A program made the translations under genes and the position numbers. Below, one piece after another: positions 7,890-25,876 of a DNA stretch of 63,332 nt; the first letter of the stretch is position 1, and each line of letters opens with the position of its first letter. The notes under the pieces were generated by a model. That model had not been told where the DNA came from, made no database searches, and worked only from the letters and a program-made list of their open reading frames with translations. Source of the DNA: an uncultured Opitutia bacterium (GTDB lineage Bacteria; Verrucomicrobiota; Verrucomicrobiia; Opitutales; CAJWYM01); contig CAJWYM010000008.1 of NCBI GenBank assembly GCA_913049555.1, positions 1 through 63,332 of the forward strand, in the 5' to 3' direction.

Positions 7890-10800
7890 ATGTTACTAAA
7901 TATTTTATGTACCTACTGAGTTTTTTTTCCGGATGGGCCTCTATTCTTTTGGCGGATGAAGTAAAAGCACCCGTGGGTTTTGAAGTCAGTTTATTTGCAA
8001 GCCGTCCAGAAATCAATTCACCCACTTGTGTCACTGCATCTCCAGATGGGAAAGTTTTCGTTGGAGTGGGTCCCAATAGCTCTCTAGGGAAGGAAAAGGA
8101 TGTTGGTAAGATTGTTTGTTGTGAAGATAAGGATCAAGATGGGAAGGCTGACAAGTTTACAGTATTTGCTCGAGTGGATAGACCTCGTGGTTTGTTTTAC
8201 AACCAAGGAAAGCTTTGGGTGTTGCATCCTCCAACTCTAAGTTTGTTCACAGATACGGATGGAGACAATATTGCGGATAAATCTGAAGTGCTGGTCTCAA
8301 ATATCAGCACCGATATGACCTTTAAAAGAGGTGCAGATCACACTACAAACGGTTTCGCAGTCGGTATCGATGGGTGGTTGTATGTTGCGGTCGGGGATTT
8401 TGGATTTTATAAAGCTAAAGGAACGGACGGAAAGCGATTGTCCAATCAAGGTGGAGGGGTACTGCGAGTTAGACCCGATGGGTCCGAAATGGAAATGTAT
8501 TCTTCTGGACTCAGAAATATCTATGATGTTGCGGTGGATCCTTGCTTGAATATTTTTAGCAGAGACAATACGAATGATGGGGGTGGGTGGAATGTTCGTT
8601 TTTCTCACATAATTGGGGGAAAGGCTGAATATGGATATCCAAAGTATTATAATAATTTTCCTGAAGACATGGTTCCTTGTTTGGAAGATTATGGAGGAGG
8701 ATCCGGAGTGGGTTCTCTCGCAGTTTATGAACCAGACACCTTTCCCGGTAAGTTTGGTCATACCATTTATACAGCGGATTGGGGGACCTCAAAAGTTTAT
8801 TGGCATGATTTACAATCCAATGGACCCTCTTTTAAACCTAAGCAGTCTGAATTTGTTGGTGTTGGAAAAGTAAGTGATCTGGCGATCGATGGCTTAGGTT
8901 CTATGTTTGTGACCGCTTTTGGATCTGACTATCAATATGGAGAGGACCGAGGCGATGTCTATCAGTTGAAATCAAATCAATCTGTAAGCTCTATCGGGTT
9001 GGACAATATACATGAGCTTGCTCCTAAGGCATTGATTGAATTGTTTAAAACCAAAAGTCATACCGTTCATCAAAATCTACAATTCGAAATTCTTCGAAGA
9101 GGACAATCCGATGAATTGGTGGTTGGGTTACAATCGATTGTAAAGGACGCAAAGCTGGAGCTTATCCATAGGATTGCTGCCCTGTTTACCTTGAAACAAT
9201 TGACGGGTGTGGAAAGTCATCTTTTTTTAGGATCATTGTTAGAGGATAATTTGTTGCGAGAATATGCGATCAAAGCTTTGGCAGATAGGAAAACTCAATT
9301 AAAAAATATTCCAGAGTTGGATATGATTACTTTTGCTGAAGACCCAAATCCAAGAGTTCGTATGCAGGTTGCCATTGCACTCGGGCGCATTGGAGGGTTA
9401 AATTCAGTGGAAGCTTTGCTCGGAATGACAAATGATAATGAGCCATTGGTTCAGCATCTAGCCAATAAATCTTTAGAACACCTGAGACCTATAGAAGTTT
9501 GTTTGAATTATGTGGAAAATCAGAAAGTGGACCGGATTCAAGGAGCATTAAAAGTTTTATACAGGATTCATGGGATGAAAGTGGTGCAAGGGTTGAAGGC
9601 AATTCTTGAAAACAGCTCAATCGAGCAAAAGAAGATTGCTGTGATCAAAACTCTTTTTCGTTTGTATCATAAGGAAATGGATTGGAAAGGGGGTTGGTGG
9701 GGAACTCGTCCTTTTAGTCAGGGTCCTTATGTGAATGCAGTAAAATGGGAGGCCTCCAAGGAGATAGAGCAAATACTTATAAAGCATATAGCTCTCCTTT
9801 CTCAAGAAACTCAGTTGAATTTAGCAGGAGATGTTCTCAGGAATCGAATCGATGCTAAGAAATTGAAATTAAATTTACCATCTGAATTAATGATCCATTA
9901 TATACCAAAAAAAATTGCATCTGTTCCGGCACTTAAATCCATGGCAACCGATCCGAAGGAGGGAATCGAGATTCGAATCAAAGCTTTTAAAATACTTCAA
10001 GAAATAACAGGAATCGATTCATTGAAGGCCCAAATTGAAATTCTCGGGGATTGCTTGGGAGAAAATTTAGGAGATTTTGAGCAATTAGAAAGTGAGTTTA
10101 TTTACTCTACACCCATTGCGGATGTTAAAATGATCAATATTATTTTTAAGGCTTACATAATGGCTAAAAAAAGTGGTCAATGGCAATTGAAAGAAACTAA
10201 ACATTCTGAAACCGCACTGCGACTCTTGATGGTCGTTTGGAACTCTTCCCTCAGCGATGCATCCACCAAGGCTAAAATTAAAAGTTTTTTTAAATATATG
10301 AAAGATTCGGAGACTTTCTATAAAGTGATCGGAGACTTAAATATAGAATCTATGCGTAGTTATGTAATTGCTGCAAAAAAGAGGGAAAAGGTCTCTAATA
10401 TCGCAATTTCGGCCTTAAATAAGTTGAATGAAAATCGGAACACAGATGACAGGAAAGTAGTTGATTTTGACTATTCTGAATTGGAAGAAGAGTTGTTAAA
10501 TACAAAAGGCGAAGTTGCCTTAGGGGAGCATTTATTTATACGCCAATCTTGTATCGTTTGCCATTCTGTAAATACAGACCAGCCTAATAAGGGTCCTTAT
10601 TTAGGAGCTTCTGGAGCTATGTTTACTCGGAAAGATCTGATTGAATCTATTGTGAAACCCAATGCAAATTTATCTCAAGGCTTTCAGACCGTTCATATCA
10701 CTTTAAAGAATAATGAAACAAAAGTGGGTTTTGTCACTAAAGAAGTGGATGGCGAAGTCCATCTGAGAGATATTATGGGAGGCACACATTACTTACTGGA

Positions 10801-10924
10801 AAAGGAGATAAAATCAAGAGTTCAATCGCCTGTATCAATGATGCCTGCTGGCCTGACCAACAATCTTAACCTGCCTGAAATGGCATCCCTTCTGGACTAT
10901 TTAGCCTCTTTAAACAACTACTAA
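7886..10924 (+). CDS. PVC-type haem-binding CxxCH protein with dehydrogenase-like propeller and HEAT repeats
   Basis: About 1,012 residues. I chose ATG 7886, which gives a signal peptide (MNVTKYFMYLLSFFSGW), has an AAAGG ribosome binding site about 10 bases upstream and overlaps the preceding stop. The N-terminal ~370 residues are a soluble-glucose-dehydrogenase-like beta-propeller (repeated DTDGDN and DGWLYVAVGDFG-type blades). A middle part with HEAT-like helices includes NPRVRMQVAIALGRIGG, and a C-terminal cytochrome domain has the haem motif Cys889-x-x-Cys892-His893. This architecture is hallmark for Planctomycetes/Verrucomicrobia. It is presumed to oxidise a sugar or polyol in the periplasm and pass electrons on; the substrate is unproven. 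Confidence 0.9.
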   Translation: MNVTKYFMYLLSFFSGWASILLADEVKAPVGFEVSLFASRPEINSPTCVTASPDGKVFVGVGPNSSLGKEKDVGKIVCCEDKDQDGKADKFTVFARVDRPRGLFYNQGKLWVLHPPTLSLFTDTDGDNIADKSEVLVSNISTDMTFKRGADHTTNGFAVGIDGWLYVAVGDFGFYKAKGTDGKRLSNQGGGVLRVRPDGSEMEMYSSGLRNIYDVAVDPCLNIFSRDNTNDGGGWNVRFSHIIGGKAEYGYPKYYNNFPEDMVPCLEDYGGGSGVGSLAVYEPDTFPGKFGHTIYTADWGTSKVYWHDLQSNGPSFKPKQSEFVGVGKVSDLAIDGLGSMFVTAFGSDYQYGEDRGDVYQLKSNQSVSSIGLDNIHELAPKALIELFKTKSHTVHQNLQFEILRRGQSDELVVGLQSIVKDAKLELIHRIAALFTLKQLTGVESHLFLGSLLEDNLLREYAIKALADRKTQLKNIPELDMITFAEDPNPRVRMQVAIALGRIGGLNSVEALLGMTNDNEPLVQHLANKSLEHLRPIEVCLNYVENQKVDRIQGALKVLYRIHGMKVVQGLKAILENSSIEQKKIAVIKTLFRLYHKEMDWKGGWWGTRPFSQGPYVNAVKWEASKEIEQILIKHIALLSQETQLNLAGDVLRNRIDAKKLKLNLPSELMIHYIPKKIASVPALKSMATDPKEGIEIRIKAFKILQEITGIDSLKAQIEILGDCLGENLGDFEQLESEFIYSTPIADVKMINIIFKAYIMAKKSGQWQLKETKHSETALRLLMVVWNSSLSDASTKAKIKSFFKYMKDSETFYKVIGDLNIESMRSYVIAAKKREKVSNIAISALNKLNENRNTDDRKVVDFDYSELEEELLNTKGEVALGEHLFIRQSCIVCHSVNTDQPNKGPYLGASGAMFTRKDLIESIVKPNANLSQGFQTVHITLKNNETKVGFVTKEVDGEVHLRDIMGGTHYLLEKEIKSRVQSPVSMMPAGLTNNLNLPEMASLLDYLASLNNY

Positions 10925-10993
10925 TTTAGAAGGTGGCAATTGCCTTTAAGTTAGGAGATACAAATTTAAATTACAAAAATTATAAAATAAAAA

Positions 10994-11824
10994 ATGAAGA
11001 AAATAAAAATAATAACAATCGCAATGATTCTTTTGGCATGTAAGGCATATTGTATGAATGAAAATGAGAAACACAAAATCCTCTATGTTACCCACGAACC
11101 TGGAAAATATCACAAATATACTCCGCAAAAAACGATTTTTGAGTCGATTGCAATGGATGCTAATTGGGAGGTTACCTATTGGACCGGTGAACATGAGGCT
11201 CAAATAAAGCGTTTGCGAACCAAAGATTTTGGATTGGGCTTTGATGCCATTGTTTATAATTTTTGCTTTGCTAAATCCACGGATCTTGAAGCCGCTTATA
11301 ATTTGATGGAACAAACCAGGACGCATGGAATTCCAGCTTTGCTGATCCATTGTTCTATGCATAGTTGGTGGGGAACTTACAAGAATCTCTCAAAATGGAA
11401 TGGAAAAGCTCATCCAAAGAAAAATTTAGTAGAAGATTGGGAAATGAAATTCCCAGAAAAGGATTTTCCTGTTTGGGGAGATTTTACCGGTGTGGCCAGT
11501 GTTAAGCATGACCATAAAAAGCCTATTGAGGTAACCAATGTAAATAGAGAGCACCCAGCGACTCAAAATATAGGAGTTGGTTTTACAACGGTGAGTACTG
11601 AATTGTATGACAACTATTATATCTTGGATTCTGTGATTCCTTTGGCAAAAGGAAAGCAGGTAAATCGCGAGGGTGTAGAGAAAGAAATGGTAGTATTTTG
11701 GGAATGCCCTCAAGGAAAGTCTAAAATTCTAGGTCTGAGTCTTGGCCATGGGATCGGTGAGTGGGGTTCTAAAGAATTTCAAAATATGGTTCGCGATGGA
11801 GTGAATTATTTAGCGAATGATTGA
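10994..11824 (+). CDS. ThuA-like (trehalose-utilisation) domain secreted protein
   Basis: 276 residues with an N-terminal export signal whose end (MILLACKAYC) could be a lipoprotein signal (LLAC) or an ordinary cleavage site. The rest matches the ThuA fold, a class I glutamine-amidotransferase-like fold, with landmarks ILYVTHEPGKYHKYTPQ, FDAIVYNFCF, HSWWGTY and the late LSLGHGIGEW. ThuA-like proteins recur next to sulfatases, GH2 and DUF1080 genes in marine Verrucomicrobiota. The function is mostly uncharacterised, with a proposed role in keto-sugar or disaccharide metabolism. It lies 69 bases after the haem protein and is probably in one operon. Confidence 0.8.
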   Translation: MKKIKIITIAMILLACKAYCMNENEKHKILYVTHEPGKYHKYTPQKTIFESIAMDANWEVTYWTGEHEAQIKRLRTKDFGLGFDAIVYNFCFAKSTDLEAAYNLMEQTRTHGIPALLIHCSMHSWWGTYKNLSKWNGKAHPKKNLVEDWEMKFPEKDFPVWGDFTGVASVKHDHKKPIEVTNVNREHPATQNIGVGFTTVSTELYDNYYILDSVIPLAKGKQVNREGVEKEMVVFWECPQGKSKILGLSLGHGIGEWGSKEFQNMVRDGVNYLAND

Positions 11825-11955
11825 ATAAAATTATTCGCCTTAAATCTTTGCCAATAAGAGAGAATTTGTTTCCTCAATGGATAGATAAATCGCTGTTTAA
11901 ATTTTTAATAAGAAGAAAGCTTTGGCTTGAAAAATCGGAAAAAGAGAGATGTGAG

Positions 11956-14409
11956 ATGTGGAAAAAAAGGATATTTAAAAAAACAATCATCCAATTTTTA
12001 TGGATGATAGTACTTGGATTGATTGTGAATGGTGAAACGAAGAAAATGAATAATACAGGACGATTGGTTCTCGACGCTAATTTTGATTGGAAATTTTATC
12101 TTGGGGTGGGCGAACCTCAAAATTTTACCAAAATCGATTATGAGGACGACGAGTGGCGATCATTAGATCTACCGCATGATTATCAAATTGAGCAACCTTG
12201 GGCTGAACCTTCCAAGGAAGAGAAGCGGATGGACAAAAAAAAGCAACCTTTTGTGTCCCGCGGCTTTAAGGAATTGAATATCGGTTGGTATCGTAAGGAG
12301 TTACAGTTTGACCCCTCTTGGAAGGGGAAACGAGTCCTGCTTGATATTGGAGGGATCATGTATGTTGGAGATGTCTGGTTCAATGGGGTTCCTTTGGGGA
12401 CCAATGAATATGGATACTTGGGGACGGAGCATGATTTGACAGATCATATTGATTGGGAAGGCAAGAATGTGGTTGCTGTGCGAGCAGACAATACCTTGAG
12501 ATCTCGCTGGTATACTGGGGGTGGATTGTATCGTAAGGTTCATTTAGTGGTCAAAGATCCTCTTTCTATAGCCCGTCATGGGGTATTCATAAAAACTCCT
12601 GAAATTTCACAAAAGCAGGCATTGGTGCAAGTTCAAGTTGAGTTGGACAATTTTTCTGCGAAAAGTCATGAAGCGCAGATCGAAATACTGCTTAAATCCC
12701 CAAATGGAGAAACGGTAGCCAGGGGCAATAAGAGTTTGGAAATCACTAAAAAAAGGGAGGTTACAAAGATGGATTTTACCCTCTTGCAACCCAATCTTTG
12801 GTCGTCGGAAAACCCTTATCTTTATCATGCTGAAGTAAGTGTCCATTCAAAGTCTAAAATCTTAGATCAAGTATCGGAGTCTTTTGGAATTCGTTCGATT
12901 GAGTGGAAACCGGATCAAGGAATGTTGGTCAATGGTAAAAAAGTGAAATTTCATGGTGTGAATGTGCACCATTCCTTTGGCGCTCTTGGAGCTGCAAATT
13001 ACGAGGCAGCAATTGTAAAAAGGTTCAAAGTTTTGAAAGAGATGGGAGTAAACGGTATTCGTCTGGCCCATAATCCTTATGCAGATTCTTTTTATGAATT
13101 GGCGGATAAGCATGGGATCTTGTTGGTCGATGAGTTGTTTGATCAATGGGAGGGGACGAACAAAAATTATCGTTTGGATTTCTTCGACTCGATTGTTCCA
13201 TGGGCTACCAAGGAATGGATTATGCGCTCTCGCAATCATCCTTCTGTAATCTTATACAGTATTGGCAACGAGATTTGGACGCATCAAATTGCCAACAATG
13301 GAAAATTCAAAGATTGGGGCGTGCCTGTTTACAATATTCTCAAAGAACAGTGTATTCAATATGATGATACTCGAAAATTCACCGTAGGATTGTACCCAGC
13401 TCGAGAAAGGGGTATGGTCAAACAGGATAAGAATTATACAAAAAGTAAGCCCCCAGAAATGGCATTTGTATCGGATATTGTGAGTCAAAATTATTTGTAT
13501 AGTGGGTTTGCTAAGGATCGTAAAACTTATCCGGATTGGCTATTTTTTCAAAGCGAAGCGACGACTGTCGGAATGGGTAAAAATTATTTTGGAATGCCCG
13601 AGGAAGCAGTAGGTCTGGCTTATTGGGGAGCTATCATGTATATCGGAGAGAGCTTTGGGTGGCCCCAGAAAGGATGGGTAAATTCTGTGATCGACCTTTC
13701 TTTGGAAAAACGTCCCCAGTTCTATTATATTCGGAGTTACTTCAGCAATGAACCCATAGTTCATATTGGGATCTATGAAAAAGAGGCAAAATTGGTTCTC
13801 TGGAATGATGTTAAATTAGGAATGGCTCAAATGGACGAGAACTGGAACAGACCTTTGAATAGCACTGCTAAAATTGATGTTTGGACCAATGCTGAAGAAG
13901 TGGAATTGTTTCTTAATGAACGATCATTAGGTATCCAAAAGAATCGCCTAAATTCTCCTGAAAATAGAAATAAAACTTCATGGAAAGTTAAATATGAGCC
14001 CGGGGTTTTACAAGCGGTTGCCAGAACGGATGGAAAAATTGTTGCGAAACACCTTATTGAGACTGTTGGAAAACCAGTTTCATTAAAATTGGAAATAGAC
14101 AATTTGAACTGGAACGCGGATGGGTTTGACCTCCAGCATATTCGTGTGATCGCAGTGGATGAAAAAGGACGAACTGTTTTTGACGCCAAGCATAAGGTTA
14201 CTTTCAATGTCCAAGGACCCGCAAAATTGATTGCAGTGGACAATGGTGACATGATGAGTGATGAACTCCATAATGGAAGGCAACGAAGTTTGCACCGTGG
14301 AACCGCCTTGGCAATTCTCAGAGCGGATCGGAAATCCGGAATCGTAACTTTCTCAGCAGAATCTGAAGGTCTTAAACCTGTAAAAATCAATTTAGAACTC
14401 TATGAATAA
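11956..14409 (+). CDS. Glycoside hydrolase family 2 (beta-galactosidase-like), secreted
   Basis: 817 residues from ATG 11956, which has an AAAGAGAG ribosome site and gives a hydrophobic export signal; the longer frame needs TTG at 11821 and adds a basic, unconserved leader. Domains run in order: sugar-binding jelly roll (~40-220), immunoglobulin-like (~220-330), TIM barrel (~330-610), then two C-terminal beta domains typical of DUF4982/GH2_C. Catalytic residues by family are the acid/base Glu439 in SIGNE and the nucleophile Glu534 in FFQSEATT. Likely action is exo-cleavage of beta-galactosyl or related residues from a sulfated glycan. The 3' end overlaps the next sulfatase by 8 bases. Confidence 0.88.
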   Translation: MWKKRIFKKTIIQFLWMIVLGLIVNGETKKMNNTGRLVLDANFDWKFYLGVGEPQNFTKIDYEDDEWRSLDLPHDYQIEQPWAEPSKEEKRMDKKKQPFVSRGFKELNIGWYRKELQFDPSWKGKRVLLDIGGIMYVGDVWFNGVPLGTNEYGYLGTEHDLTDHIDWEGKNVVAVRADNTLRSRWYTGGGLYRKVHLVVKDPLSIARHGVFIKTPEISQKQALVQVQVELDNFSAKSHEAQIEILLKSPNGETVARGNKSLEITKKREVTKMDFTLLQPNLWSSENPYLYHAEVSVHSKSKILDQVSESFGIRSIEWKPDQGMLVNGKKVKFHGVNVHHSFGALGAANYEAAIVKRFKVLKEMGVNGIRLAHNPYADSFYELADKHGILLVDELFDQWEGTNKNYRLDFFDSIVPWATKEWIMRSRNHPSVILYSIGNEIWTHQIANNGKFKDWGVPVYNILKEQCIQYDDTRKFTVGLYPARERGMVKQDKNYTKSKPPEMAFVSDIVSQNYLYSGFAKDRKTYPDWLFFQSEATTVGMGKNYFGMPEEAVGLAYWGAIMYIGESFGWPQKGWVNSVIDLSLEKRPQFYYIRSYFSNEPIVHIGIYEKEAKLVLWNDVKLGMAQMDENWNRPLNSTAKIDVWTNAEEVELFLNERSLGIQKNRLNSPENRNKTSWKVKYEPGVLQAVARTDGKIVAKHLIETVGKPVSLKLEIDNLNWNADGFDLQHIRVIAVDEKGRTVFDAKHKVTFNVQGPAKLIAVDNGDMMSDELHNGRQRSLHRGTALAILRADRKSGIVTFSAESEGLKPVKINLELYE

Positions 14410-16006
14410 AAAGACCTTATTTAAAATTTTGCTACTGAATCTTTTCTGGATTATTCCATCTGTATTCTGTCAAAACAAAAAGCCCAATATCGTTTTAATC
14501 ATGTGTGATGATATGGGATACTCCGATTTGGGATGTTATGGCAGTGAGATAGAAACGCCGAACATCGATGCGTTGGCTGAGAAAGGAGTGCGATTCAGTA
14601 ACTTCAGAAATACGGGTCGCTGCTGTCCAAGTAGAGCTTCCCTGTTAACAGGTCGCCATCAGCACGCTGTTGGCTTAGGTTGGATGACTGCCGTGGATGA
14701 ACATCGTCCTGGTTACAGAGGACAAATTAGCAGTAAGATTCCAACGATTGCAGAGATCTTGAAAAAGAATGGTTATTCAACCTATATGACAGGCAAGTGG
14801 CACCTGACTGTTGATGGTGCTTGGAAGCCTAAGAATAGTCAGGTAAATGGGAGCTATCCCATAAAGAGAGGTTTTGACAAATTTTATGGTACCCTCTCGG
14901 GTGCGGGTAACTTTTATAGGCCTAAATCTCTTTATTTGAATGAAAATAGGGTGTCTGAGTATTCCAAAGATTATTACTACACCCATGCAATCAATCATTA
15001 TTCAGTCCAGTTCATTCGAAACCATGAGGGCAGCAATCCGTTTTTTCTTTATGTAGCCCATTATGCTCCGCATCGCCCTTTGCAAGCTCCTCAAGAGAGA
15101 ATTGAATCTTGCCGAGAAAGGTATATTAAGGGGTATGACTTTCTTAGAGATCAGCGTTTCAATCGAATGAAATCGCTTGGATTAATAGAAGCTGAAGCCC
15201 AGCTTCCTGTTCATGAACGTGAATACAAAAAACAACCTCGACCTTCTTGGGATTCTCTTGATTCCGAAATGCAGAATGATTGGATCGAAGAAATGGCAAA
15301 ATACGCAGCTATGATTGAGATTGTAGACGACGGTATAGGTGAATTGGTGGAAGAAATAAAAAAGAGAGGGGATTTTGAAAACACAGTATTCCTATTTTTG
15401 AGTGACAATGGAGCTACGAGTGAAGGAGGTTTGATTTCACAACTTGCAGCGGATTTAAGCAATACACCTTACAGATCGTACAAATCAAAAACCTATTTAG
15501 GCGGAACGAACTCTCCATTTCTGATTCATTATACAAAAATTATAAATGAGAAAACAAATTCGGTGGAATCAGATCCGGCCCATATTGTGGATGTTTTGCC
15601 GACTTGCCTAGACTTGATTGGGGTTGATTATCCCAGTAATTTCAAGGATGAAAAAATAGATTCTTTGGATGGAATCAGCTTGGTTCCAGCTTTTAAAAAT
15701 GAAGGGTTGATGGAACGAGATTTTTTCTTTGAACACCAAACTGCAAGTTCTGTTATTTCGGGTGATTGGAAGCTGGTCCGTTTGAGTAGTGGTGCTTCTT
15801 GGGAATTAATAAATTTAAAAGAGGACCCATTTGAGCAGGAAGATCTCTCTAGGTCTTATCCAGAGAAAGTAACTGAATTAGAGAAAAAATGGATTTTGTG
15901 GGGTGAAAAAAACAATGTTTTGCCCTTGAATACCAAAGGGCTATCCTGGAACGACCGTATAAAAAAGTATACGGAGCTTTACCCTGATCAGGATGGTCAA
16001 GAGTAA
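14402..16006 (+). CDS. Secreted sulfatase (S1 family, arylsulfatase A-like)
   Basis: 534 residues with a signal peptide (to about residue 22). The formylglycine motif is CCPSR starting at Cys74. Metal-binding MCDDMGYSD, intact GKWHL, YVAHYAPHRP and FLSDNGATSEGG are all present, so the active site looks complete. The start ATG lies inside the 3' end of the GH2 gene (ATGAATAA), arguing for coupled translation and joint action on the same glycan. Exact S1 subfamily and linkage cannot be told by eye. Formylglycine maturation must come from an enzyme encoded outside this window. Confidence 0.92.
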   Translation: MNKKTLFKILLLNLFWIIPSVFCQNKKPNIVLIMCDDMGYSDLGCYGSEIETPNIDALAEKGVRFSNFRNTGRCCPSRASLLTGRHQHAVGLGWMTAVDEHRPGYRGQISSKIPTIAEILKKNGYSTYMTGKWHLTVDGAWKPKNSQVNGSYPIKRGFDKFYGTLSGAGNFYRPKSLYLNENRVSEYSKDYYYTHAINHYSVQFIRNHEGSNPFFLYVAHYAPHRPLQAPQERIESCRERYIKGYDFLRDQRFNRMKSLGLIEAEAQLPVHEREYKKQPRPSWDSLDSEMQNDWIEEMAKYAAMIEIVDDGIGELVEEIKKRGDFENTVFLFLSDNGATSEGGLISQLAADLSNTPYRSYKSKTYLGGTNSPFLIHYTKIINEKTNSVESDPAHIVDVLPTCLDLIGVDYPSNFKDEKIDSLDGISLVPAFKNEGLMERDFFFEHQTASSVISGDWKLVRLSSGASWELINLKEDPFEQEDLSRSYPEKVTELEKKWILWGEKNNVLPLNTKGLSWNDRIKKYTELYPDQDGQE

Positions 16007-16050
16007 ATCTTAAGAAAAAAGCGTAGGAACCCTTTCCTGTAAAAGATAAA

Positions 16051-17457
16051 ATGAATATGAAAAAAATAGAGTATATAGTAGGGGTCCTTTTGTTAGGATT
16101 GAATTTTGTTGGTTTTTCAATGGAAAAGCCGAATGTGGTATTCTTTTTGGTAGATGATTTTAGCTGGGGAGCTTTGTCGAGTCATGGAAGTAATTTTCAC
16201 GAGACGCCAAATATTGATAAGCTTGCGAGGAGTGGCATGACTTTTACCAATGGATATGCTGCTTGCACAGTATGTTCACCAAGTCGAGCGGCAATTCTTA
16301 CCGGATGTTATCCAGCGAGAACGCATCTTACGGACTGGATTGCGGGTCATCGAAAACCATTTGAAAAATTAAAAGTGCCCGATTGGAATATGAAAATAGA
16401 CCATGAGCGAGTTGTACTTCCTGAGGCGTTAAAAGAACTGGGATATTCGACAAGTTTTATTGGTAAGTGGCATCTTTTGCCCCATAGAGACAAAGATTTG
16501 ATGAAAGATCATTTTCCTGAGTCCCATGGATTTGATCAAAATATAGGGGGGCGTGAATGGGGACAACCTAAAGGGCGGGGAAAGTATATGCATCCTTTTG
16601 ATATGCCGAATGTAACCAGCAAAGAAGGGGATTATTTGACAGACCGTTTGACAGACTACGCGGTTGAATTTATCGATCAGCAAGAAAACAATCCATTTTT
16701 TCTTTATTTTTCTTATTACACAGTTCATGGACCGCTCATGGCTAAGCCAGAATTGATTGCTAAATACAAAGCAAAGTCAAAGACGGGAAAATTCAAGCAC
16801 ACTAATCCAGTGTATGCAGCGATGGTTCAGAGCCTAGATGAGAGCGTTGGACGAGTTCTCGATAAGTTGGAAGAGGTAGGCAAAGCAAACAATACCATAG
16901 TCATATTTACTGGAGACAACGGAGCGGTTGGCAACAATTACTGCGCGGGTCTAAGAGGTGCGAAAGGTTACTCCTTTGAAGGGGGAGTTCGGGAACCTTT
17001 TTTTATTAGAGGACCAGGGATTCCAGTGGACTCTTTCTCTGAGGTTCCTGTGATCGCAATGGACTTTTATCCAACGATCTTGGATTTGATTGGAGTTCCG
17101 CTCAAGCCGGATCAACACAAAGATGGTTTGAGTTTAAAACCACTGCTTCAGCAGACTGGTGGAATTGAGCATCGCTCCTTGTTTTGGCATTACCCGCATT
17201 ATCATAAAACAATGCCTTATGGGGCAATTCGACAAGGAAATTATAAGTTGATTGAATTCTTTGAAAACGGAGCTTTGGAGTTGTATGATTTGGAAAAAGA
17301 CCCAAGCGAAAAAAATAATTTAACAAAAAAGATGCCTGAGAAGTCGGATGAGTTGTTGGGAAATCTTGAGAAATGGCGTTTGACTGTCGGTGCACAAAAA
17401 ATGAGTGAGAATCCAAATTACGATCCTAGCAAAGCTGGAAAAGGTTTGAAATGGTAA
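16051..17457 (+). CDS. Secreted sulfatase (S1 family)
   Basis: 468 residues with a signal peptide (to about residue 24). The formylglycine motif is CSPSR at Cys75; FLVDDFSWG, GKWHL, YTVHGPL and FTGDNGAVGN mark the metal and sulfate site. The early ACTVCSPSRAAILTGCYPAR block is typical of the large S1_16-like group. ATG codons at 16051 and 16057 are both possible starts. It follows the previous sulfatase by 44 bases and is likely in the same transcript. A third sulfatase in the island suggests a glycan sulfated at several positions. Confidence 0.92.
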   Translation: MNMKKIEYIVGVLLLGLNFVGFSMEKPNVVFFLVDDFSWGALSSHGSNFHETPNIDKLARSGMTFTNGYAACTVCSPSRAAILTGCYPARTHLTDWIAGHRKPFEKLKVPDWNMKIDHERVVLPEALKELGYSTSFIGKWHLLPHRDKDLMKDHFPESHGFDQNIGGREWGQPKGRGKYMHPFDMPNVTSKEGDYLTDRLTDYAVEFIDQQENNPFFLYFSYYTVHGPLMAKPELIAKYKAKSKTGKFKHTNPVYAAMVQSLDESVGRVLDKLEEVGKANNTIVIFTGDNGAVGNNYCAGLRGAKGYSFEGGVREPFFIRGPGIPVDSFSEVPVIAMDFYPTILDLIGVPLKPDQHKDGLSLKPLLQQTGGIEHRSLFWHYPHYHKTMPYGAIRQGNYKLIEFFENGALELYDLEKDPSEKNNLTKKMPEKSDELLGNLEKWRLTVGAQKMSENPNYDPSKAGKGLKW

Positions 17458-17574
17458 TAGGTCTGATTGAGGGCCTTATAGAATTGTAGAAGTGAAATCT
17501 TATTAAAAATGGAGATTAAAAAGTGGAATCTTTAAATTTGAGAACAAGTACCTACATATTACTGAATTATAATT

Positions 17575-19134
17575 ATGAACGATAAAGAAAAAAATCTGTT
17601 ATTTTGGGCCTCCTTTATATCTCTGTTTGCAGCTGCTGTTGGGTTTGTATTTAGATCCATGGTCCCAAGTTTATGGGCAACCCATTTCGAGGTGAACAAC
17701 GATATGGTGGGTGCATTGTTTGGTGCAAGTCTTTGGCCTATAGCGGTAACCATGATCTTATTTAGCTTACTTGTAGATAAGATTGGATACAAAATTTCTA
17801 TGTTTTGTGCATTTTCTTGCCAAGCGGTTTCAGTAGTCCTGACAATGACTGCGAGTTCTTATGATGCTATGTGGTGGGCCTGTATCATTGCAGGTTTGGG
17901 CCATGGTATTGTTGAGGCTGTAATCAACCCTCTTTGCGCTAGCATTTATCGAGAAGAGAAGAGTAAGTGGTTGAATATCCTGCATGCTTCTTGGCCCGCT
18001 GGTATTATGGTGGGTGGAATCGTTTATTTGACGATGTATCAGGGATCTGAAAATTGGTTAGATGCGAAATCTTCTTTTATTTTCATGCTACTTCCTGTCA
18101 TTGCCTATGGAGTGATGTTTCTTCTCTGTAAACAATTCCCTGTCGATGAAAGAGTGGAAAACAATGTATCTGTAATGGAGATGTTGAAAGAATTTGGAGG
18201 TTTGGGTTCTTTTCTTGCAATCACATTTCTTGTTTATGAGTTGTCCAATCAATTGGGAGGTGGTTTTTTTGCGGAAGATAAGTTACTCAAGTGTCTTGGA
18301 GTTGGAATTCTAGGGGGTGCTTTGATTGGAGTTCTTCTAAAATCTTTAGGGAAGTGGTTGTTCTTTATATTGTGTGTTGTGATGATTCCTCTGGCGACTG
18401 CTGAGATTGCTACCGATGGTTGGATCAAAAAGTTAATGGAACCCACTATGGGAGATTATGCGGGATGGGCTTTGGTATTTTCTGCGAGTATCATGATGGT
18501 TTTAAGATTTTTTGCAGGGGTTCCTTTAAAGTTCATGTCCCCTCCAGGTCTATTATTATTTAGTTCTGCCTTCTCAATCGCTGGACTTTTTCTGCTTTCT
18601 TACGTAAATGGGCCTTTGGTCTTTTTTGCCTTTATTTTTTATGCAGTGGGTCAAACCTTTTATTGGCCAACTGTTCTGGGTTTAGTGTCCGAACAATTTC
18701 CAAAAGGCGGAGCTATGACTTTAAATACTGTTTCTGCTATGGGTTTATTGACTGTTGGAATTTTTGGATTCCCATTTTTGGGTGCCGTTCAAGACAATTA
18801 CAATTCAAAAACAATCGAAGAACAGCAACCAGCATTGGTTCAAAAAATAAAATCTGAGAATAGAACCTTTGGTAAAGAAAATTCTCCTATCTATTCAGAG
18901 AATGAGCTTTTCAGCGTTGGCTATAAAAGTATCAATATTGATGGGGTTTTGGCCCAAGTTGAGATTACGGATGAAGCGAAGGATTTATTGAAGGGGAAGC
19001 TTGTAAATACTGGGCGTAGCACCTTGAGAGTGGCCGCTGCATTGCCGATATCTATGGCGATCGTTTTTGGATTGATTGCCCTGTGGTTTCGATCTAAAGG
19101 TGGGTATAAACCAGTTGTGCTTGGTTCTGATTAA
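17575..19134 (+). CDS. Major facilitator superfamily transporter (sugar permease-like)
   Basis: 519 residues with about 12 hydrophobic segments. The first (FWASFISLFAAAVGFVFRSM) and the Gly-rich helices around IIAGLGHGIVEAVINPLCAS are typical of sugar-type MFS permeases. A longer hydrophilic loop at about residues 410-460 precedes the last helix. Position after GH2 and sulfatases suggests it imports the mono- or oligosaccharide they release across the inner membrane. The 117-base gap to the preceding sulfatase shows no terminator, so it may belong to the same transcript. Confidence 0.85.
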   Translation: MNDKEKNLLFWASFISLFAAAVGFVFRSMVPSLWATHFEVNNDMVGALFGASLWPIAVTMILFSLLVDKIGYKISMFCAFSCQAVSVVLTMTASSYDAMWWACIIAGLGHGIVEAVINPLCASIYREEKSKWLNILHASWPAGIMVGGIVYLTMYQGSENWLDAKSSFIFMLLPVIAYGVMFLLCKQFPVDERVENNVSVMEMLKEFGGLGSFLAITFLVYELSNQLGGGFFAEDKLLKCLGVGILGGALIGVLLKSLGKWLFFILCVVMIPLATAEIATDGWIKKLMEPTMGDYAGWALVFSASIMMVLRFFAGVPLKFMSPPGLLLFSSAFSIAGLFLLSYVNGPLVFFAFIFYAVGQTFYWPTVLGLVSEQFPKGGAMTLNTVSAMGLLTVGIFGFPFLGAVQDNYNSKTIEEQQPALVQKIKSENRTFGKENSPIYSENELFSVGYKSINIDGVLAQVEITDEAKDLLKGKLVNTGRSTLRVAAALPISMAIVFGLIALWFRSKGGYKPVVLGSD

Positions 19135-19462: not shown

Positions 19463-20638
19463 ATGAAGTGGTTTTTTAGTTTACTCAACAAATTTGCTTG
19501 TTATTTTTGGGTTCCTTTTGCTATCTCTCCTGTTTTTGGGATTAGTCATGAAAATTTTGAAACTTCCTCAGGTCGCCTTGCCGAGAACAGTTTAGAACTC
19601 ATAGAAGGTTGGCATGTTCCTGTTGGCAAAGCTTTTTTCAGTGCTGAAGATTCTCATAGAGGTTCCCAATCTCTTAAATTAGGTTTAAACGCTCCATTAG
19701 TTTCTCAAATAGTAAGAGACCTTCCTGGTGACAAATCCGTTCTTTATACGGATTTTTATATGAAGCCTATGGTTCACCCTTCAATGATCTCTGAAACTAT
19801 TAACTTAGAGGGAGCCGTGATTGCTTTCAATTCTGCTGGAAATCAACAAGCAGAGGTGTTTCTCTTGGATGAAGAGTCTTCCCAGGACCTTAATTTCATT
19901 CCTACCGGTGTTTTGTTTCCTTTGAATACTGAAAATCAATCTTCAGATTTTATAAGAATAACAGTCCGAAAGGATTTCACTTCCGAGGGTCGTTGGTCCG
20001 TCTGGCTCAATGAAAAACTTGTTGCTATCAACCTAAAATTTGAGAAATCATCTCATTCTTCCCGCCAAGCAGTCCTATTTGGAAACGAGCTTGGCGGAAG
20101 TTATATCGATGATTTTACGATAAGCGCTATGCCCATTTATAAATCCGATTGGGACGGTGATTCATATGATGATGTTTTAGAAATTGAACAAGGATCCGAT
20201 CCATTCGACATGAGTTCAACTCCGTTAAAAAATATTCAGCCTTTCTTTGATACGGATTTAGATGGCATGGGTGATTCTTGGGAAGTGCAGTATTTTGGTA
20301 ATTTGAACCAATCTTCTACTAGTGATTTTGATGGTGACGGATTATTAGATGCTCAAGAATTTGAAATGGGACGAATTCCGACTACAGTAGATTATGGGAA
20401 CCATTTTTTATATGTGGATAATTTGTATGGTAAGGATTCAAATGATGGTAAATCTAGTCGTCATTTGGACTCTTCAATTGGCCCTGTTAAAAGTTTCAAA
20501 GAAGCGGTTTCGAAGGCAAATGAAGGAGATACTCTTATCGTATTATTGGGGCGTGGAGATTATCCGCATTTCCCCAAGTTTACAGAAAAATCATTACGAA
20601 TTCGTTTTATCAAAACAGTAAGAATCAGAACCCAATAA
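19463..20638 (+). CDS. Secreted protein with calcium-loop (TSP3-like) repeats and a truncated beta-helix-type end
   Basis: 391 residues with an export signal (to about 27). Residues 30-225 form an unrecognised, probably beta-sandwich, LamG-like region. Residues ~225-310 carry Asp-rich calcium loops (DWDGDSYDD, DTDLDGMGDSWE, DFDGDGLLDAQE). The end (YVDNLYGKDSNDGKS, GPVKSFKEAV, GDTLIVLLG) resembles the opening of DUF1565/pectate-lyase-like parallel beta-helix domains but stops after the first turns. The stop is followed 2 bases later by the next ATG, so no lost continuation remains downstream. The MxDSWExxxFGN block is shared with the fourth cassette gene. Function unknown; surface display or glycan binding is plausible. 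Confidence 0.75.
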   Translation: MKWFFSLLNKFACYFWVPFAISPVFGISHENFETSSGRLAENSLELIEGWHVPVGKAFFSAEDSHRGSQSLKLGLNAPLVSQIVRDLPGDKSVLYTDFYMKPMVHPSMISETINLEGAVIAFNSAGNQQAEVFLLDEESSQDLNFIPTGVLFPLNTENQSSDFIRITVRKDFTSEGRWSVWLNEKLVAINLKFEKSSHSSRQAVLFGNELGGSYIDDFTISAMPIYKSDWDGDSYDDVLEIEQGSDPFDMSSTPLKNIQPFFDTDLDGMGDSWEVQYFGNLNQSSTSDFDGDGLLDAQEFEMGRIPTTVDYGNHFLYVDNLYGKDSNDGKSSRHLDSSIGPVKSFKEAVSKANEGDTLIVLLGRGDYPHFPKFTEKSLRIRFIKTVRIRTQ

Positions 20639-20640
20639 GT

Positions 20641-21651
20641 ATGAAAAGTCTCGCAATCGCAGTTCTCGTTTTCCTCCTCTTTCAATCTTCTATTTTGGCA
20701 TCTTCAATTATTTATGAAAATGACCAAGTCTTTGAAGGAAGTGTTACTTTCAAGAAAGGGCTTATTTTAGAAACTCCTGCAATCAAAAACTATGCTTTGG
20801 AATTATCAGAGCAGGAAGTTTTTTTAAAAAGCACTTCCGAGATTTTTTCTTTTCAGGGGGATACTCAAGACAACTCATTCACATTTGTTGGTTGGTTGCA
20901 GTTAGCAAATACCAATGAAGTGACCCTCTTTCAGGCAACAAACCATTTAGATCAATCCGCATACAGTTTAAGAGTCCTCTCTGATGGTGCCCTCGAATTT
21001 CAACTAAACACACTCTCCGGTCCAAATATTGTTGCAAGGAGTTTGGAAGTTGCTTGCATTCCTAGAGAGTGGAGTTTTTTAACCATTAGCTATGATGGTC
21101 TCAGAAATACAGGTAGTATAGTGATCTCTTTAAATGCAGTGAATCTTAGTTTAAAAACTGACATTCATGACAACGTCAAGGGCGAAATCAGTTCCGATAT
21201 TGTATTTGAGATTCGTGGAAATTCTCAAAACATATTTCAGTTAGACCATCTTTCTTTATTCGATAAAGTTTTATCAGAGGATGAGATAAGTAAATTGTTT
21301 AACAACGGTTACGGAGTCAATTTTCACAATTTGACTGGATCTGAATCTTTTTTGTCAAACATTTCTGCGTGGTATGATTTCAACGACCTTTCCAATTTAG
21401 GTTTGGATAGTATGGGACTTAATTCTTTCGCATCTTCCACAAAAAGCGACAGTTATGTTTCTGGTTTTATTTTAAACAATGTGTCCCAAATCTCTTTGAG
21501 TCTGACTGAAGTTCTCAAATGGAGAGCTGCTTTTTTTAAATCCAATATTAACCCTTATGAGGGAGAACCATTGAAGAATGGGACTCTTCATACATCTGCA
21601 TGGACCATTGAACCGCAAGGGGGAATTTCAATGGGTATTTTTACTGATTAA
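20641..21651 (+). CDS. Secreted LamG/concanavalin-like protein
   Basis: 336 residues with a clear signal peptide (ending SSILAS at about 20). Residues ~45-230 read as a LamG-type jelly roll (FTFVGWLQLAN, REWSFLTISYDG, then the hallmark end FQLDHLSLFDKVLSEDEISKLFNNG). A short C-terminal tail follows. Such domains bind glycans or cell-surface partners. The gene begins 2 bases after the preceding stop and lies 22 bases before the next start, so the cassette is one transcript. No catalytic residues recognised. Confidence 0.75.
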   Translation: MKSLAIAVLVFLLFQSSILASSIIYENDQVFEGSVTFKKGLILETPAIKNYALELSEQEVFLKSTSEIFSFQGDTQDNSFTFVGWLQLANTNEVTLFQATNHLDQSAYSLRVLSDGALEFQLNTLSGPNIVARSLEVACIPREWSFLTISYDGLRNTGSIVISLNAVNLSLKTDIHDNVKGEISSDIVFEIRGNSQNIFQLDHLSLFDKVLSEDEISKLFNNGYGVNFHNLTGSESFLSNISAWYDFNDLSNLGLDSMGLNSFASSTKSDSYVSGFILNNVSQISLSLTEVLKWRAAFFKSNINPYEGEPLKNGTLHTSAWTIEPQGGISMGIFTD

Positions 21652-21673
21652 TAGAACGAACCCACATCGCATC

Positions 21674-22900
21674 ATGAAAACAAATCGCTTAAACCTGAGT
21701 GCATTATTTACTTTTTTTGTTTTTTTATTATTCGCTTCGAAGTTTTCATTGACCGCTGAACCTCGTGTAGCCAATGTCATCGCTTCTCAAGTAGGGGATA
21801 AGCTTGAAATACAATATGATATTCTTTCTCTACCAGAGGGAGTCGAGTCCACCAATATTGATGTCTTTTTTTCTGAGGATGGAACGGAAGAATCTTATTC
21901 TCAGGTATATGCGATTTCTGGGGATATTCATCCGGGGATAGCCAATGGTCACACCATCATTTGGGATATTACTAAAGATTGGTTGGGTGAATTTACCAGC
22001 TCTGGTAGAATCCGAGTGGTCGTTGAAAATTGTGGCAATTCCTTTCCAACGGATGACGTGGATGCTGAGGCATATATAACTCAAATCGAAAGCCTTGGTG
22101 GAGCATTAACAAATGGAGAAAAAGAGGGTATAAGGCGATTTTATCTTTCCGTAAAGTTGACTGAGAATGAAGCGGGTTCTAAAATATGGGATCAAATGCA
22201 TGCGATTTACTTACCAATATGGGGGAGTAGAGTAAGTGGAGTAGAGGCCCAAGAGATTATGAATGGGATCAATCTTAAAAAACCAGGAGTTTCCTTTCCA
22301 GAACCTTCAGACAATTATTTGGAGTTTCATGGATCTGTAAATCATCTTGATGGATATATCCAAGGAGATGGAGAAACGGGTTATGCAAACATTCCTAGTA
22401 TCACTCCCGATCAATTAACTTCCGAAAAACCTTACATCAGTTACTCTGTTTTTATTAAAGATTTTGATAGCACTAAAATGGGTCAATTTATTGGTGCAGG
22501 GGATGGAACTCGGGGTATTTTTTATGGAAGTAGCAGTTATTCAACAGGACAACCTTACACTGGTCGTCCTATGAGAGATTTAGAACTTGAGGACAATTCC
22601 TTGGTAATTGCCTATAGCACCCCAAATTTTGATTTGTCATACGAACGGATAAGTTTGATGTTTCACTTTGGGAGGCTTAACCAGTTTTTATTTGGAGAAA
22701 ATACAAACTGGATTGAAGGCAGCCAATTCGATAATTCAAATTATACAAATACCTTTTATTTGATGGCTAATAATACAGGTTCTGGAGCGAGTGATTTCAG
22801 CAATGCAAAAATAAGATTTGCTCACATTGGGGTAGATCTGACAATCAACCAAGTATCGATTTTTACCGATGCGGTGCATGAGTTACTTAGTAATTTTTAG
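21674..22900 (+). CDS. Secreted protein joining a FGE-associated beta-sandwich to a tail-fibre-like domain
   Basis: I start at ATG 21674 (408 residues), which places a signal peptide first (MKTNRLNLSALFTFFVFLLF); an upstream in-frame ATG at 21578 would overlap the LamG gene and bury the signal. Residues ~27-130 (ANVIASQVGDKLEIQYDI and HTIIWDITKDWLGEF) resemble the beta-sandwich often placed before formylglycine-generating-enzyme-type domains in this phylum. Residues ~135-408 (ITQIESLGGALTNGEKEGI, IWDQMHAIYLPIWG, GSVNHLDGYIQGDGETGYAN) resemble a module I know from phage or algal-virus tail-fibre-like proteins. This reading rests on memory of the pattern. Function unknown. Confidence 0.65.
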   Translation: MKTNRLNLSALFTFFVFLLFASKFSLTAEPRVANVIASQVGDKLEIQYDILSLPEGVESTNIDVFFSEDGTEESYSQVYAISGDIHPGIANGHTIIWDITKDWLGEFTSSGRIRVVVENCGNSFPTDDVDAEAYITQIESLGGALTNGEKEGIRRFYLSVKLTENEAGSKIWDQMHAIYLPIWGSRVSGVEAQEIMNGINLKKPGVSFPEPSDNYLEFHGSVNHLDGYIQGDGETGYANIPSITPDQLTSEKPYISYSVFIKDFDSTKMGQFIGAGDGTRGIFYGSSSYSTGQPYTGRPMRDLELEDNSLVIAYSTPNFDLSYERISLMFHFGRLNQFLFGENTNWIEGSQFDNSNYTNTFYLMANNTGSGASDFSNAKIRFAHIGVDLTINQVSIFTDAVHELLSNF

Positions 22901-22927
22901 TGCAACGATTGCTTTTGTTTTATTCAA

Positions 22928-25588
22928 GTGAAGAAGCGATTCAGTACTTTTACTATGCGACCTGATTGTAAAAAAAAGGGGTTAAGATTTTTTTTTATTT
23001 TAGCATTCAGTCTATATTTCTTTGTAAATTCGATTTTTGCTTCTGCTCCTTCATGGTGGTCCCATCCATCCAATGGGATTTTTATGGAGGAATATTCAGG
23101 GTCTGAGGACCATTATGCCCCTGTAAATGTAGGTCAGCTGAAGCACGTGTACAATCAAAGCCTGCAATATTTAGTTTCCAAAGGCGTAGATATCACTGAA
23201 TTAAATTCATTTACATCGCTTCAGTCTGACAATTATAAAGCGGTGAATATTGGCCAATTAAAGGCTTTGGCTACTTTGGTTTATGATAAATTAAATCTTA
23301 TTACGGAATACGATTTAAAAAATGATTTAATTTCTAAAGGGATTCCTGTAAACCTCTGGTATGACGATGCTCCCTACTATCCATGGGATCCTTCCATTCG
23401 GGGCGAGAATTATAAATTAGTCAATTTGGGTCAACTCAAAGCTGTTTTTAGTTTTGAAATCATTGGATTAAAAACGTCAAAAGTTTCTTATTATTCTCTA
23501 ATTTCCCAGTCGCTTCTGGAGGTTCCTGAATCTTGTAAAAGTGAGAGTGTTCACTTCACGATCGGTTTTTTTAAGGACACCGATTCAGATGGTATTTCTG
23601 ACAATGATGAGGAAAACATTCTTTATGCAAATGGATTTAGTAAAAAGAACAATATAGATTCGGATGGGGACCATTACCCGGATGGATATGAAGTTGCTAT
23701 CAACCAAGATCCAACGGTTTTTATCTCCTCGGATTGCATCGCAGAGTCCGCTTTGATTGCAGTTTATCTAGATGGGTCTTTTGACAGTGATGGCGATGGT
23801 CTTACAGATCAAGAAGAACTCACTTTAGGGCTAGAGATCGAGAATGTAGATAGTGATCAAGACGGATTTGAGGATGGTTTGGAAGTAATTGCTGAAACGG
23901 ATCCATTGAATTTCTTTGATTATCCTCGAAGTAATTGCCAAGGAGAAAGCTCTATATTTGTGGTGCGTTCCATTCTAGACGAAGACAGTGATGGTCTTAC
24001 CGATCTAACAGAAGAAAATAAGCTTTTTGCTAATGGAAAAAGTAGCAAAGAGAACATAGATAGCGATGGGGATTTCTATTATGATGGTTTTGAAGTCTCA
24101 AGAGGAACGGATCCAACAAGTTTTACACCTTCAGTTTGTCGCTCTAATTCAGAACCTTTTGTAATCATTCTAGCTGACGGAGATTATGATGAAGATGGTA
24201 TGATGGATTCTTGGGAGATGGAACATTTTGGAAATATATCTAGAGACGGGACTGAGGATTATGATAAGGATGGATTGTGGGATTTAAATGAATTTCTTGG
24301 GAGAACAAATCCGCTAGTTTTAGAAAGCAATCAAGATGAGATTCCTGATGTATTGAATCTTTTAAAAGAAACCTGGATGCCTCTGATGGATTCTCGATCT
24401 ATGGTTTTTTATGATTTTAAGGCTTCAAAAAATGGGTCTATGGATTTTTATTCAAATAACCATTTGAATTTGTTTGGATTTTTTAACGGTTCCCCTTTTG
24501 AAAGTTTTATGGATTATTCTGGCAGTGCATCCATAATTGGAAACAAACACAAAAAAGTGTTTTCCGCTTCAGGGTTACATTTCATAGGCATTGCTTTGAA
24601 AGGACCTTTTGGTGAGGGCTCTTCTCGGGGCGATGAAGTGGATGCATTGACTTCATTTATCATGAAGAAATTGTATCAATCTTATGATCTCGATAGGGAT
24701 CAGGATCCGCTTAAAGAGATCTATTTATGCAATACGGATTGGAAATTCCACTTATTAAATAACGATAATTTAAGGGTTCTCATGAATAATAAGTTGAATC
24801 CGATTAACTCGTTGTCTGATGTTTCGGATGAAAAGTGGATGCTTTTTGGCCTCTGTTTTGATTCCAGTTCCTCCTGTGAAAATCTAAAGTTTTATTATGG
24901 CAACAGGGCTAAGGGAATAAAATTAGTTAAAAAAGCAACTTTAGATCCCAGACCAAATCGTTCACGTTCAATGAAAAGGCTGCTTCAAAAGAATTTGATG
25001 AGTGAACTTTTTGATCGCAGGGCTCTAATTGGAAGGACAAAGACAGGCTCAGTAGGTGAGGATTTAGCCTTTTCTTATTATAAGAAAAACTTAGAACAGC
25101 AGCCCCCTCCTTCATTTTTAAAAATGGAGCACATTGTGGTCTCAGGAAAAAATCATTCTCAAGCAAATAGAAAAGCCATTAAAATTCTAAAGAGTCCCCT
25201 CATTGATAAAAAGGGTGGTTTTCAAAAATTAGTAAAAAAACATACTTCTAGCAAAAATGTAAAAGTATTGTTTGAGAATCTTGGATATTTACCTATTGAC
25301 CAAAACTCTAGCACCAAACCTATTAAGAATTGGAAGCTTCCTCTGATTGAAAAAGGAGTGAGCCTTGAAGTAGGAGAAGTGTATGAGGAATTGATCAAAA
25401 CAAAGGAAGGCTTTCATATTGTCAAATTGACTGGTAGAAAAACCGCAAAGATTCCCATTTTTGATCAGGTGAAACAAAAATTGATTCGGAAACTTTTGCT
25501 TAAATCTTATGAAAAGAGATACCCTAGTTGTTTTGATAAACCAGACGACGAATATTTAATTTTTGATCGACTCCATTTCCTTTTTTAA
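22928..25588 (+). CDS. Secreted protein: NxGQLK repeats, 67-residue calcium-loop repeats and a C-terminal parvulin-like domain
   Basis: 886 residues from GTG 22928; ATG 22955 gives an equally good export signal. Three copies of a [NH]YxxVNxGQLK motif (residues 62-72, 102-112, 161-171) form the N-terminal module seen in many verrucomicrobial surface proteins. Residues 203-403 are three exact 67-residue units, each opened by Cys and holding Asp-rich calcium loops, with a diverged fourth from 404. An unrecognised region follows. Residues ~733-870 (MEHIVVSG, LGYLPID, VYEELIKTKEGFHIVKLTGR) look like a parvulin (PpiC/SurA-type) prolyl isomerase. Last gene of the cassette; it may help fold or anchor the other three products. 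Confidence 0.72.
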   Translation: MKKRFSTFTMRPDCKKKGLRFFFILAFSLYFFVNSIFASAPSWWSHPSNGIFMEEYSGSEDHYAPVNVGQLKHVYNQSLQYLVSKGVDITELNSFTSLQSDNYKAVNIGQLKALATLVYDKLNLITEYDLKNDLISKGIPVNLWYDDAPYYPWDPSIRGENYKLVNLGQLKAVFSFEIIGLKTSKVSYYSLISQSLLEVPESCKSESVHFTIGFFKDTDSDGISDNDEENILYANGFSKKNNIDSDGDHYPDGYEVAINQDPTVFISSDCIAESALIAVYLDGSFDSDGDGLTDQEELTLGLEIENVDSDQDGFEDGLEVIAETDPLNFFDYPRSNCQGESSIFVVRSILDEDSDGLTDLTEENKLFANGKSSKENIDSDGDFYYDGFEVSRGTDPTSFTPSVCRSNSEPFVIILADGDYDEDGMMDSWEMEHFGNISRDGTEDYDKDGLWDLNEFLGRTNPLVLESNQDEIPDVLNLLKETWMPLMDSRSMVFYDFKASKNGSMDFYSNNHLNLFGFFNGSPFESFMDYSGSASIIGNKHKKVFSASGLHFIGIALKGPFGEGSSRGDEVDALTSFIMKKLYQSYDLDRDQDPLKEIYLCNTDWKFHLLNNDNLRVLMNNKLNPINSLSDVSDEKWMLFGLCFDSSSSCENLKFYYGNRAKGIKLVKKATLDPRPNRSRSMKRLLQKNLMSELFDRRALIGRTKTGSVGEDLAFSYYKKNLEQQPPPSFLKMEHIVVSGKNHSQANRKAIKILKSPLIDKKGGFQKLVKKHTSSKNVKVLFENLGYLPIDQNSSTKPIKNWKLPLIEKGVSLEVGEVYEELIKTKEGFHIVKLTGRKTAKIPIFDQVKQKLIRKLLLKSYEKRYPSCFDKPDDEYLIFDRLHFLF
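23534..24136 (+). repeat. Three tandem 201-bp (67-codon) coding repeats
   Basis: Within the fourth cassette gene, Cys codons at 23534, 23735, 23936 and 24137 are exactly 201 bases apart. Each unit follows the same order: Cys, a short beta stretch, a first calcium loop (DSDG type), a second DSDxD loop, then a turn such as TDP. DNA identity is low, so the copies are old, but no insertion or deletion has accumulated in three full units. A fourth unit begins at 24137 and diverges. Confidence 0.85.
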
Positions 25589-25876
25589 AGTGGTAGAAAA
25601 ATTCAATTTATCTTTTAAGGCAGATGCTGCTGTAAAAAGTATTTGAATGAATTTTATATTCAGTTACAGCAAAAACTATAATTTGAGAAGTCATTTCTTG
25701 ATCAGAAATGTGGGTTCAATTAAGAGAGTATGGATCCATTTACCTCTAAATGAAGCTACTTTTTAATCTTGTATATGAAAATTTCTTCCACTTTGAAATT
25801 GAAAATAGAGTTATATAAAAGATCTTGTGTATAAAGATTTGAAAAGAATTTAGAGATCCCGTATTCATAGTTATTT

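Follow-up and report, generated by a model that had tools for sequence, protein, structure and literature searches.

Four adjacent genes for secreted proteins with no assigned function raise the question of whether they form a system of their own and, if so, of what kind. They occupy positions 19463–25588 of contig CAJWYM010000008.1 (GenBank assembly GCA_913049555.1) from an uncultured Opitutia bacterium; the whole stretch analysed, 63,332 nucleotides of the forward strand, is referred to here as the window. The genes are named P1, P2, P3 and P4, and the original prediction, made from the sequence alone, had taken them for a joint assembly, perhaps a surface adhesin or a glycan-capture complex with its own foldase. 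Sequence comparisons argue strongly that P1, P2 and P4 belong to a cassette of co-conserved genes that is nearly confined to Verrucomicrobiota, Kiritimatiellae and Lentisphaerae. On balance, we lean towards reading the locus as a representative of a cassette for several secreted proteins in Planctomycetes–Verrucomicrobia–Chlamydiae (PVC) bacteria that resembles a dismantled trimeric autotransporter adhesin (TAA), here in an RHS-less adhesin variant.

The family came to light when the order was searched with P4 and the neighbourhoods of the matches were inspected. The cassette is defined here by three signatures: the P1-type C-terminal domain, which closes in GxVxIR, the P2-type C-terminal tail and the triple NxGQLK module (GQLK module). 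All three occur in the window, in P1, P2 and P4, respectively. A model of the GQLK module (alignment A1) was run on the GTDB collection and on a sample of 388 genomes of the phylum. In the collection it matched 48 loci, 44 of them labelled Verrucomicrobia, Kiritimatiellae or Lentisphaerae, two labelled 'uncultured bacterium' and two from metagenome-assembled genomes (MAGs) of other phyla; 40 of the 388 sampled genomes were positive. Loci L092 and L094, which come from two MAGs of one SJ series, hold closely similar cassettes; one of these MAGs is labelled Microthrixaceae (Actinobacteria) and is possibly mis-binned, the other is labelled Verrucomicrobiia. Statistics for the P2-type tail were taken from 85 non-redundant loci, with the tail and a stop required within 3 kb. 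Of 79 loci, 65 have the tail at most 3 kb upstream of the GQLK module and on its strand, and one has it on the opposite strand; none of 71 has it downstream. Orthologues occurring singly, named in the original prediction as evidence against a joint system, are thus not what the P2–P4 pair shows. An ORF-based count (open reading frames; ORFs) gave 62 of 79 against 16 of 757 control ORFs, some of the 16 belonging to the cassettes of overlapping loci. The first loci served to derive the tail motif; among later loci picked by GQLK alone (L143–L177) it was present in 19 of 29. Strong matches to the P1 domain were made in 26 genomes, many of them seeds of the P1-domain model, and 22 of these were also GQLK-positive (Fisher p about 3e-21); with non-seed genomes only, the count was five of nine (p about 8e-4). 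In L186 and L189 a P1-type gene is followed by a P2-type end in genomes with no detected GQLK module. In relatives the gene just before GQLK nearly always has the P2-type tail, a P1-type gene often lies further upstream and a giant RHS gene often follows; in the window the tail gene, P2, is two genes upstream of P4. The co-conservation originally proposed as a check on four genes therefore extends to P1, P2 and P4 and leaves out P3.

The N-terminal 225 residues of P1 match P1-type proteins of four other loci (L055, L060, L089 and L044; 2e-5 to 9e-13). A P1-domain model built without the window matched P1 at E 2.3e-8, ending two residues from the C-terminus, and in most other matches the domain likewise ends at most five residues from the C-terminus. 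Since this end is conserved in relatives, the possibility that P1 is a truncated beta-helix gene was rejected. A structure prediction of the domain from five sequences reached a pLDDT of only 57 and was not used. The description of P1 as a calcium loop plus the start of a beta-helix thus holds in part: TSP3 is matched below threshold (Pfam, NCBIfam), and the supposed start is a complete, conserved C-terminal domain. The MxDSWExxxFGN block said to be common to P1 and P4 was confirmed (47% identity, E 1.6e-11), but many unrelated proteins of the order match it too; being a generic TSP3-type element, it does not by itself tie the two genes together, and it was rejected as proof of joint assembly. 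On contig C14 of the assembly (locus L041, 9581–14907), a secreted protein of more than 1775 residues that runs off the contig end resembles P1 in its N-terminal domain (28% identity) and contains several TSP3 blocks and, by eye, PA14-like repeats; no cassette signature was seen in it.

The likeness to TAAs comes from the proteins of the P4 and P2 types. Residues 25–180 of P4, which hold the GQLK module, recur across the order, chiefly in short ORFs of 220–300 residues. Of 85 proteins, 77 have exactly three repeats, and none has more. The TAA neck/stalk family YadA_stalk (PF05662) was matched by 18 of 40 GQLK modules (best 2.7e-10), and sub-significant alignments of GQLK to the PDB land on TAA neck motifs such as DAVNVGQLK. 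PMC2483945 describes the TAA neck as a conserved connector from a wide head to a narrower stalk. The module is predicted to fold as three helix–strand–helix repeats (pLDDT 80.6). The fibre-like proteins of other cassettes are those of the P2 type: a Pfam YadA_head match was found in 16 of 43 of them (best 8.8e-41), and a P2-type profile matched TAA heads in the PDB (BpaC, 7e-18; YadA, 3.5e-10). The tail of window P2, EPQGGISMGIF, resembles the PPQGGIxMGxF of relatives. Its predicted LamG-like character was borne out by a Pfam match above the cut-off, and the same combination of LamG and tail occurs in L151. Directly upstream of the P2-type gene in six loci (L045, L049, L052, L053, L055 and L058) lies a short, secreted, charged and helical-looking protein of about 150–290 residues, which is absent from the window.

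What the cassette usually carries was overlooked in the original prediction, namely a giant RHS protein or another polymorphic-toxin-like payload. RHS, as called by phmmer and Pfam, is fused to the GQLK protein in 11 loci and encoded just downstream in 34, together 45 of 65 determinable loci; among 32 downstream proteins, Pfam found 20 with RHS_repeat and one with a TcdB middle region. In L085 a GQLK protein ends in a pretoxin Hint domain (PT-HINT) and the HNH toxin Tox-SHH and is followed by a SUKH-1 immunity-type gene. The RHS payloads and this toxin indicate that the cassette commonly carries polymorphic-toxin-like proteins. As RHS is missing in 20 of the 65 loci, many with long intact GQLK proteins, such a payload is typical of the cassette rather than defining. 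In the window, no RHS/YD repeats were found in P1–P4 or the next ORFs, and no toxin or immunity gene follows P4, which ends in a parvulin domain. The next 288 bases (25589–25876), where relatives often hold a payload or partner gene, are AT-rich and contain no ORF of at least 80 residues. Compared with the typical cassette, the window copy has P3 as an extra gene, LamG instead of the YadA head, and TSP3, LamG-like and parvulin parts instead of RHS. The only RHS match above the cut-off in the assembly is an orphan 240-residue C-terminal tip beside a galactokinase-like gene (contig C17, locus L112, 759–1481, minus strand). Two RHS-less GQLK proteins, in L078 and L090, end in HExxH-type motifs (HEIGH and HEQGH) and are each followed, with a 4-base overlap, by a secreted ORF; these proteins may be metallopeptidase payloads, and the ORFs their partner genes.

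The foldase ascribed to P4 was upheld as a domain, a predicted peptidyl-prolyl isomerase, and not as a part of the conserved cassette. Rotamase_2 was matched at 1e-5 (26.8 bits, barely below the cut-off of 27), NCBIfam PRK00059 at 4.7e-8 (below the family cut-off) and two solved PrsA-type foldases in the PDB at 3.7e-4 and 0.003; the ORFs of other cassettes yielded no relative of the domain. A search of plasmid proteins gave only two matches, both to the TSP3 region.

From these likenesses we infer trimerization, docking, display and a pseudo-threefold adapter role, as follows. The P2-type protein would form a homotrimeric head. At the N-terminus of the P4-type protein, the three TAA-neck-like repeats of the single chain would together make up a pseudo-threefold neck and cap the P2 trimer, the likely contacts being the three P2 C-terminal tails (GDIxMGxF). 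A single-chain triple neck of this kind could join a homotrimeric fibre to one single-copy payload, which in relatives would usually be a giant RHS protein or polymorphic toxin. The P1-type protein, which has a conserved C-terminus of its own, may be another part of the fibre or a cap. In the window copy TSP3, the LamG-like stretch and parvulin would take the place of the payload and LamG that of the P2 head, with P3 inserted. The window copy is then most likely a surface or secreted adhesin rather than a toxin, and the surface adhesin proposed originally fits the relationship of the cassette to trimeric adhesins.

Several observations weigh against the reading as a dismantled TAA. A recognizable P2 tail is missing in 14 of 79 loci. 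Pfam found no YadA-type head in window P2, only LamG, and no YadA membrane anchor was found in P1–P4 or among the families of the 43 P2-type relatives. The tail of window P1, FIKTVRIR, lacks the conserved glycine of GxVxIR. The window GQLK module matches PF05662 at 4.6e-5 (24.1 bits) and stays under the curated cut-off of 28.4, and a one-repeat GQLK profile found no match in the PDB. The best Foldseek matches of the predicted GQLK fold are not TAA necks but triple surface-layer homology (SLH) domains, at non-significant scores (3pyw, E 0.55, prob 0.54); a search of BFVD with the same model gave no match.

The coordinates of all features are given in Table 1. That the four proteins are exported and encoded with gaps of 2, 22 and 27 bases was confirmed: the ORFs are intact, all have hydrophobic N-termini of Sec-type appearance judged by sequence, and the spacing holds with the P3 start at 21674. 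The ORF list places this start at 21578, within P2; the alternative (MKTNRLNLSALFTFFVFLLF...) gives a signal-peptide-like N-terminus and the 22-base gap. P4 starts with GTG at 22928, with an alternative ATG at 22955. A promoter and terminator scan gave nothing beyond the level of shuffled sequence. Relatives of P3 cover only its first ~130 residues and lie in other Verrucomicrobiota proteins; none was found in other cassettes. P3 had been called tail-fibre-like, for which the databases offered nothing past a weak PHROG match (0.0013), with no match to phages. Directly upstream of the cassette (7877–19134) are genes for a GH2-like enzyme, a ThuA-domain protein, two sulfatases and a major facilitator superfamily (MFS) transporter.

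Table 1. Features of the four-gene locus, in window coordinates.
Feature	Position	Strand	Basis
P1, secreted: N-terminal domain, TSP3-type block, cassette C-terminal domain	19463..20638	+	ORF list, profile matches
TSP3-type block of P1 (DxWExxYFGN), also in P4	20147..20377	+	P1/P4 comparison
P1 C-terminal domain (YV...G.D..G...GP...G.Y...(R)..V.IR), single beta-helix-like turn	20354..20629	+	Profile match, alignment
P2, secreted: LamG protein with cassette C-terminal tail	20641..21651	+	ORF list, Pfam
LamG/concanavalin-like domain of P2 (PF13385)	20863..21291	+	Pfam 1.5e-6, 28.8 bits (cut-off 27.6)
P2 C-terminal tail EPQGGISMGIFTD, signature PQG(D/G)IxMGxF	21610..21648	+	Tail motif
P3, secreted, specific to the window copy	21674..22900	+	ORF list; relatives for residues ~12–133 only
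P4: triple-GQLK module, TSP3 region, LamG-like stretch, parvulin domain	22928..25588	+	ORF list, Pfam, GQLK model
GQLK module, three N-x-GQLK repeats, matches TAA neck/stalk	23048..23458	+	GQLK model E 1.3e-43 (window P4 is a member of the model); PF05662 4.6e-5, below cut-off (18 of 40 relatives match)
GQLK repeat 1	23102..23179	+	Repeat alignment
GQLK repeat 2	23222..23299	+	Repeat alignment
GQLK repeat 3	23399..23476	+	Repeat alignment
TSP3 repeat region of P4	23573..24367	+	Pfam PF18884 2.6e-12, three stretches
LamG-like stretch of P4	24395..25042	+	Assigned by eye; no database match
Parvulin (PPIC-type) domain of P4	25043..25522	+	Pfam, NCBIfam, PDB

Other explanations were weighed against the same evidence. 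It is highly improbable that four unrelated modular secreted proteins are adjacent by chance and have nothing in common but generic TSP3 motifs: the block in P1 and P4 is indeed such a motif and P3 has no cassette relatives, but three independent signatures recur in the conserved order P1–P2–P4, and the co-conservation already contradicts a chance arrangement. An anchoring role deserves more weight, although we consider it unlikely. The triple GQLK module would here be an SLH-like envelope anchor, a spindle that keeps P4 and the RHS proteins at the surface by binding a polymer of the cell wall or envelope, with the P2-type fibre merely co-expressed. SLH domains likewise use three repeats, and 3pyw is one of several triple SLH structures at the top of the Foldseek matches. 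None of these fold matches is significant, however; no Pfam match to the SLH motif (PF00395) was obtained at E 0.1 in the 40 GQLK members, 18 of which match YadA_stalk, and the tight link to a gene resembling TAA heads would be left unexplained.

We are similarly doubtful that the window copy is the decaying remnant of an RHS/toxin cassette that has lost its payload and has no present function as a unit. The lack of an RHS, toxin or immunity gene after P4, the orphan RHS tip as the only such trace elsewhere in the assembly and the atypical P1 tail and P2 head would all agree with decay, but none of the four closely spaced ORFs is broken, P4 has gained a parvulin domain and P3 has been added, and about 20 other loci are RHS-less too, many with long intact GQLK proteins. 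Somewhat less unlikely is a glycan-capture complex of all four proteins that serves the neighbouring sulfatase/glycosidase cluster. Two sulfatases, the MFS transporter and the GH2-like enzyme directly upstream speak for it, as do the LamG domain of P2 and the LamG-like stretch of P4. The sulfatase genes, however, lie about 2 kb upstream, with a 328-base gap and the transporter gene in between, LamG is a frequent domain of secreted proteins, and in other genomes the family goes with RHS or toxin payloads. Within the reading as a dismantled TAA, the window copy is perhaps a glycan-binding adhesin beside the sulfatase cluster, which is a weakly supported guess.

The cassette can be set beside known systems. 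It resembles TAAs (type Vc; YadA, BpaC, BadA, AtaA) in the YadA-type head of P2-type relatives and the PF05662 matches of the GQLK repeats. It differs from them in dividing head and neck between proteins, in repeating the neck three times within a single chain, in lacking the YadA anchor and in having RHS, toxin or other domains as payload; window P2, moreover, has LamG in place of the head. Triple SLH domains are similar in having three repeats per chain and, weakly, in predicted fold, but not in sequence. The C-terminal domain of P4 matches parvulin foldases of the PrsA/SurA type, but is fused to a GQLK/TSP3 protein. Its TSP3 region matches the MtsD/CglD cohesion and gliding proteins of Myxococcota, in the repeats alone and far below the family cut-offs. 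With RHS/YD-repeat polymorphic toxins, relatives of the cassette have in common the RHS repeats and, in L085, the Hint, Tox-SHH and SUKH parts, all of which the window copy lacks; the extracts of PMC3482391 that were consulted do not name a carrier made up of GQLK, P2-type and P1-type proteins. In the open-access literature, no description was found of the motif or of a link between Verrucomicrobia, RHS and trimeric adhesins. The single parts are familiar and their arrangement is apparently undescribed; as the coverage was open-access only, a missing description does not prove novelty.

Four unassigned genes of the window can now be regarded as an RHS-less variant of a recognizable family. More tentatively, and with somewhat less confidence than for the locus itself, the family may be a PVC-specific system for surface display or delivery in which TAA head and neck are divided between secreted proteins, a single-chain triple neck acts as symmetry adapter and one interchangeable payload (RHS cage, toxin, lectin-like or foldase) is carried on a homotrimeric fibre. 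Giant RHS and polymorphic-toxin-like proteins occur in many PVC bacteria, and their delivery route is apparently undescribed; the cassette offers candidate parts and a testable assembly rule of three tails, three neck repeats and one payload. As a search marker, the GQLK module could also lead to payload and immunity genes of uncultured Verrucomicrobiota.

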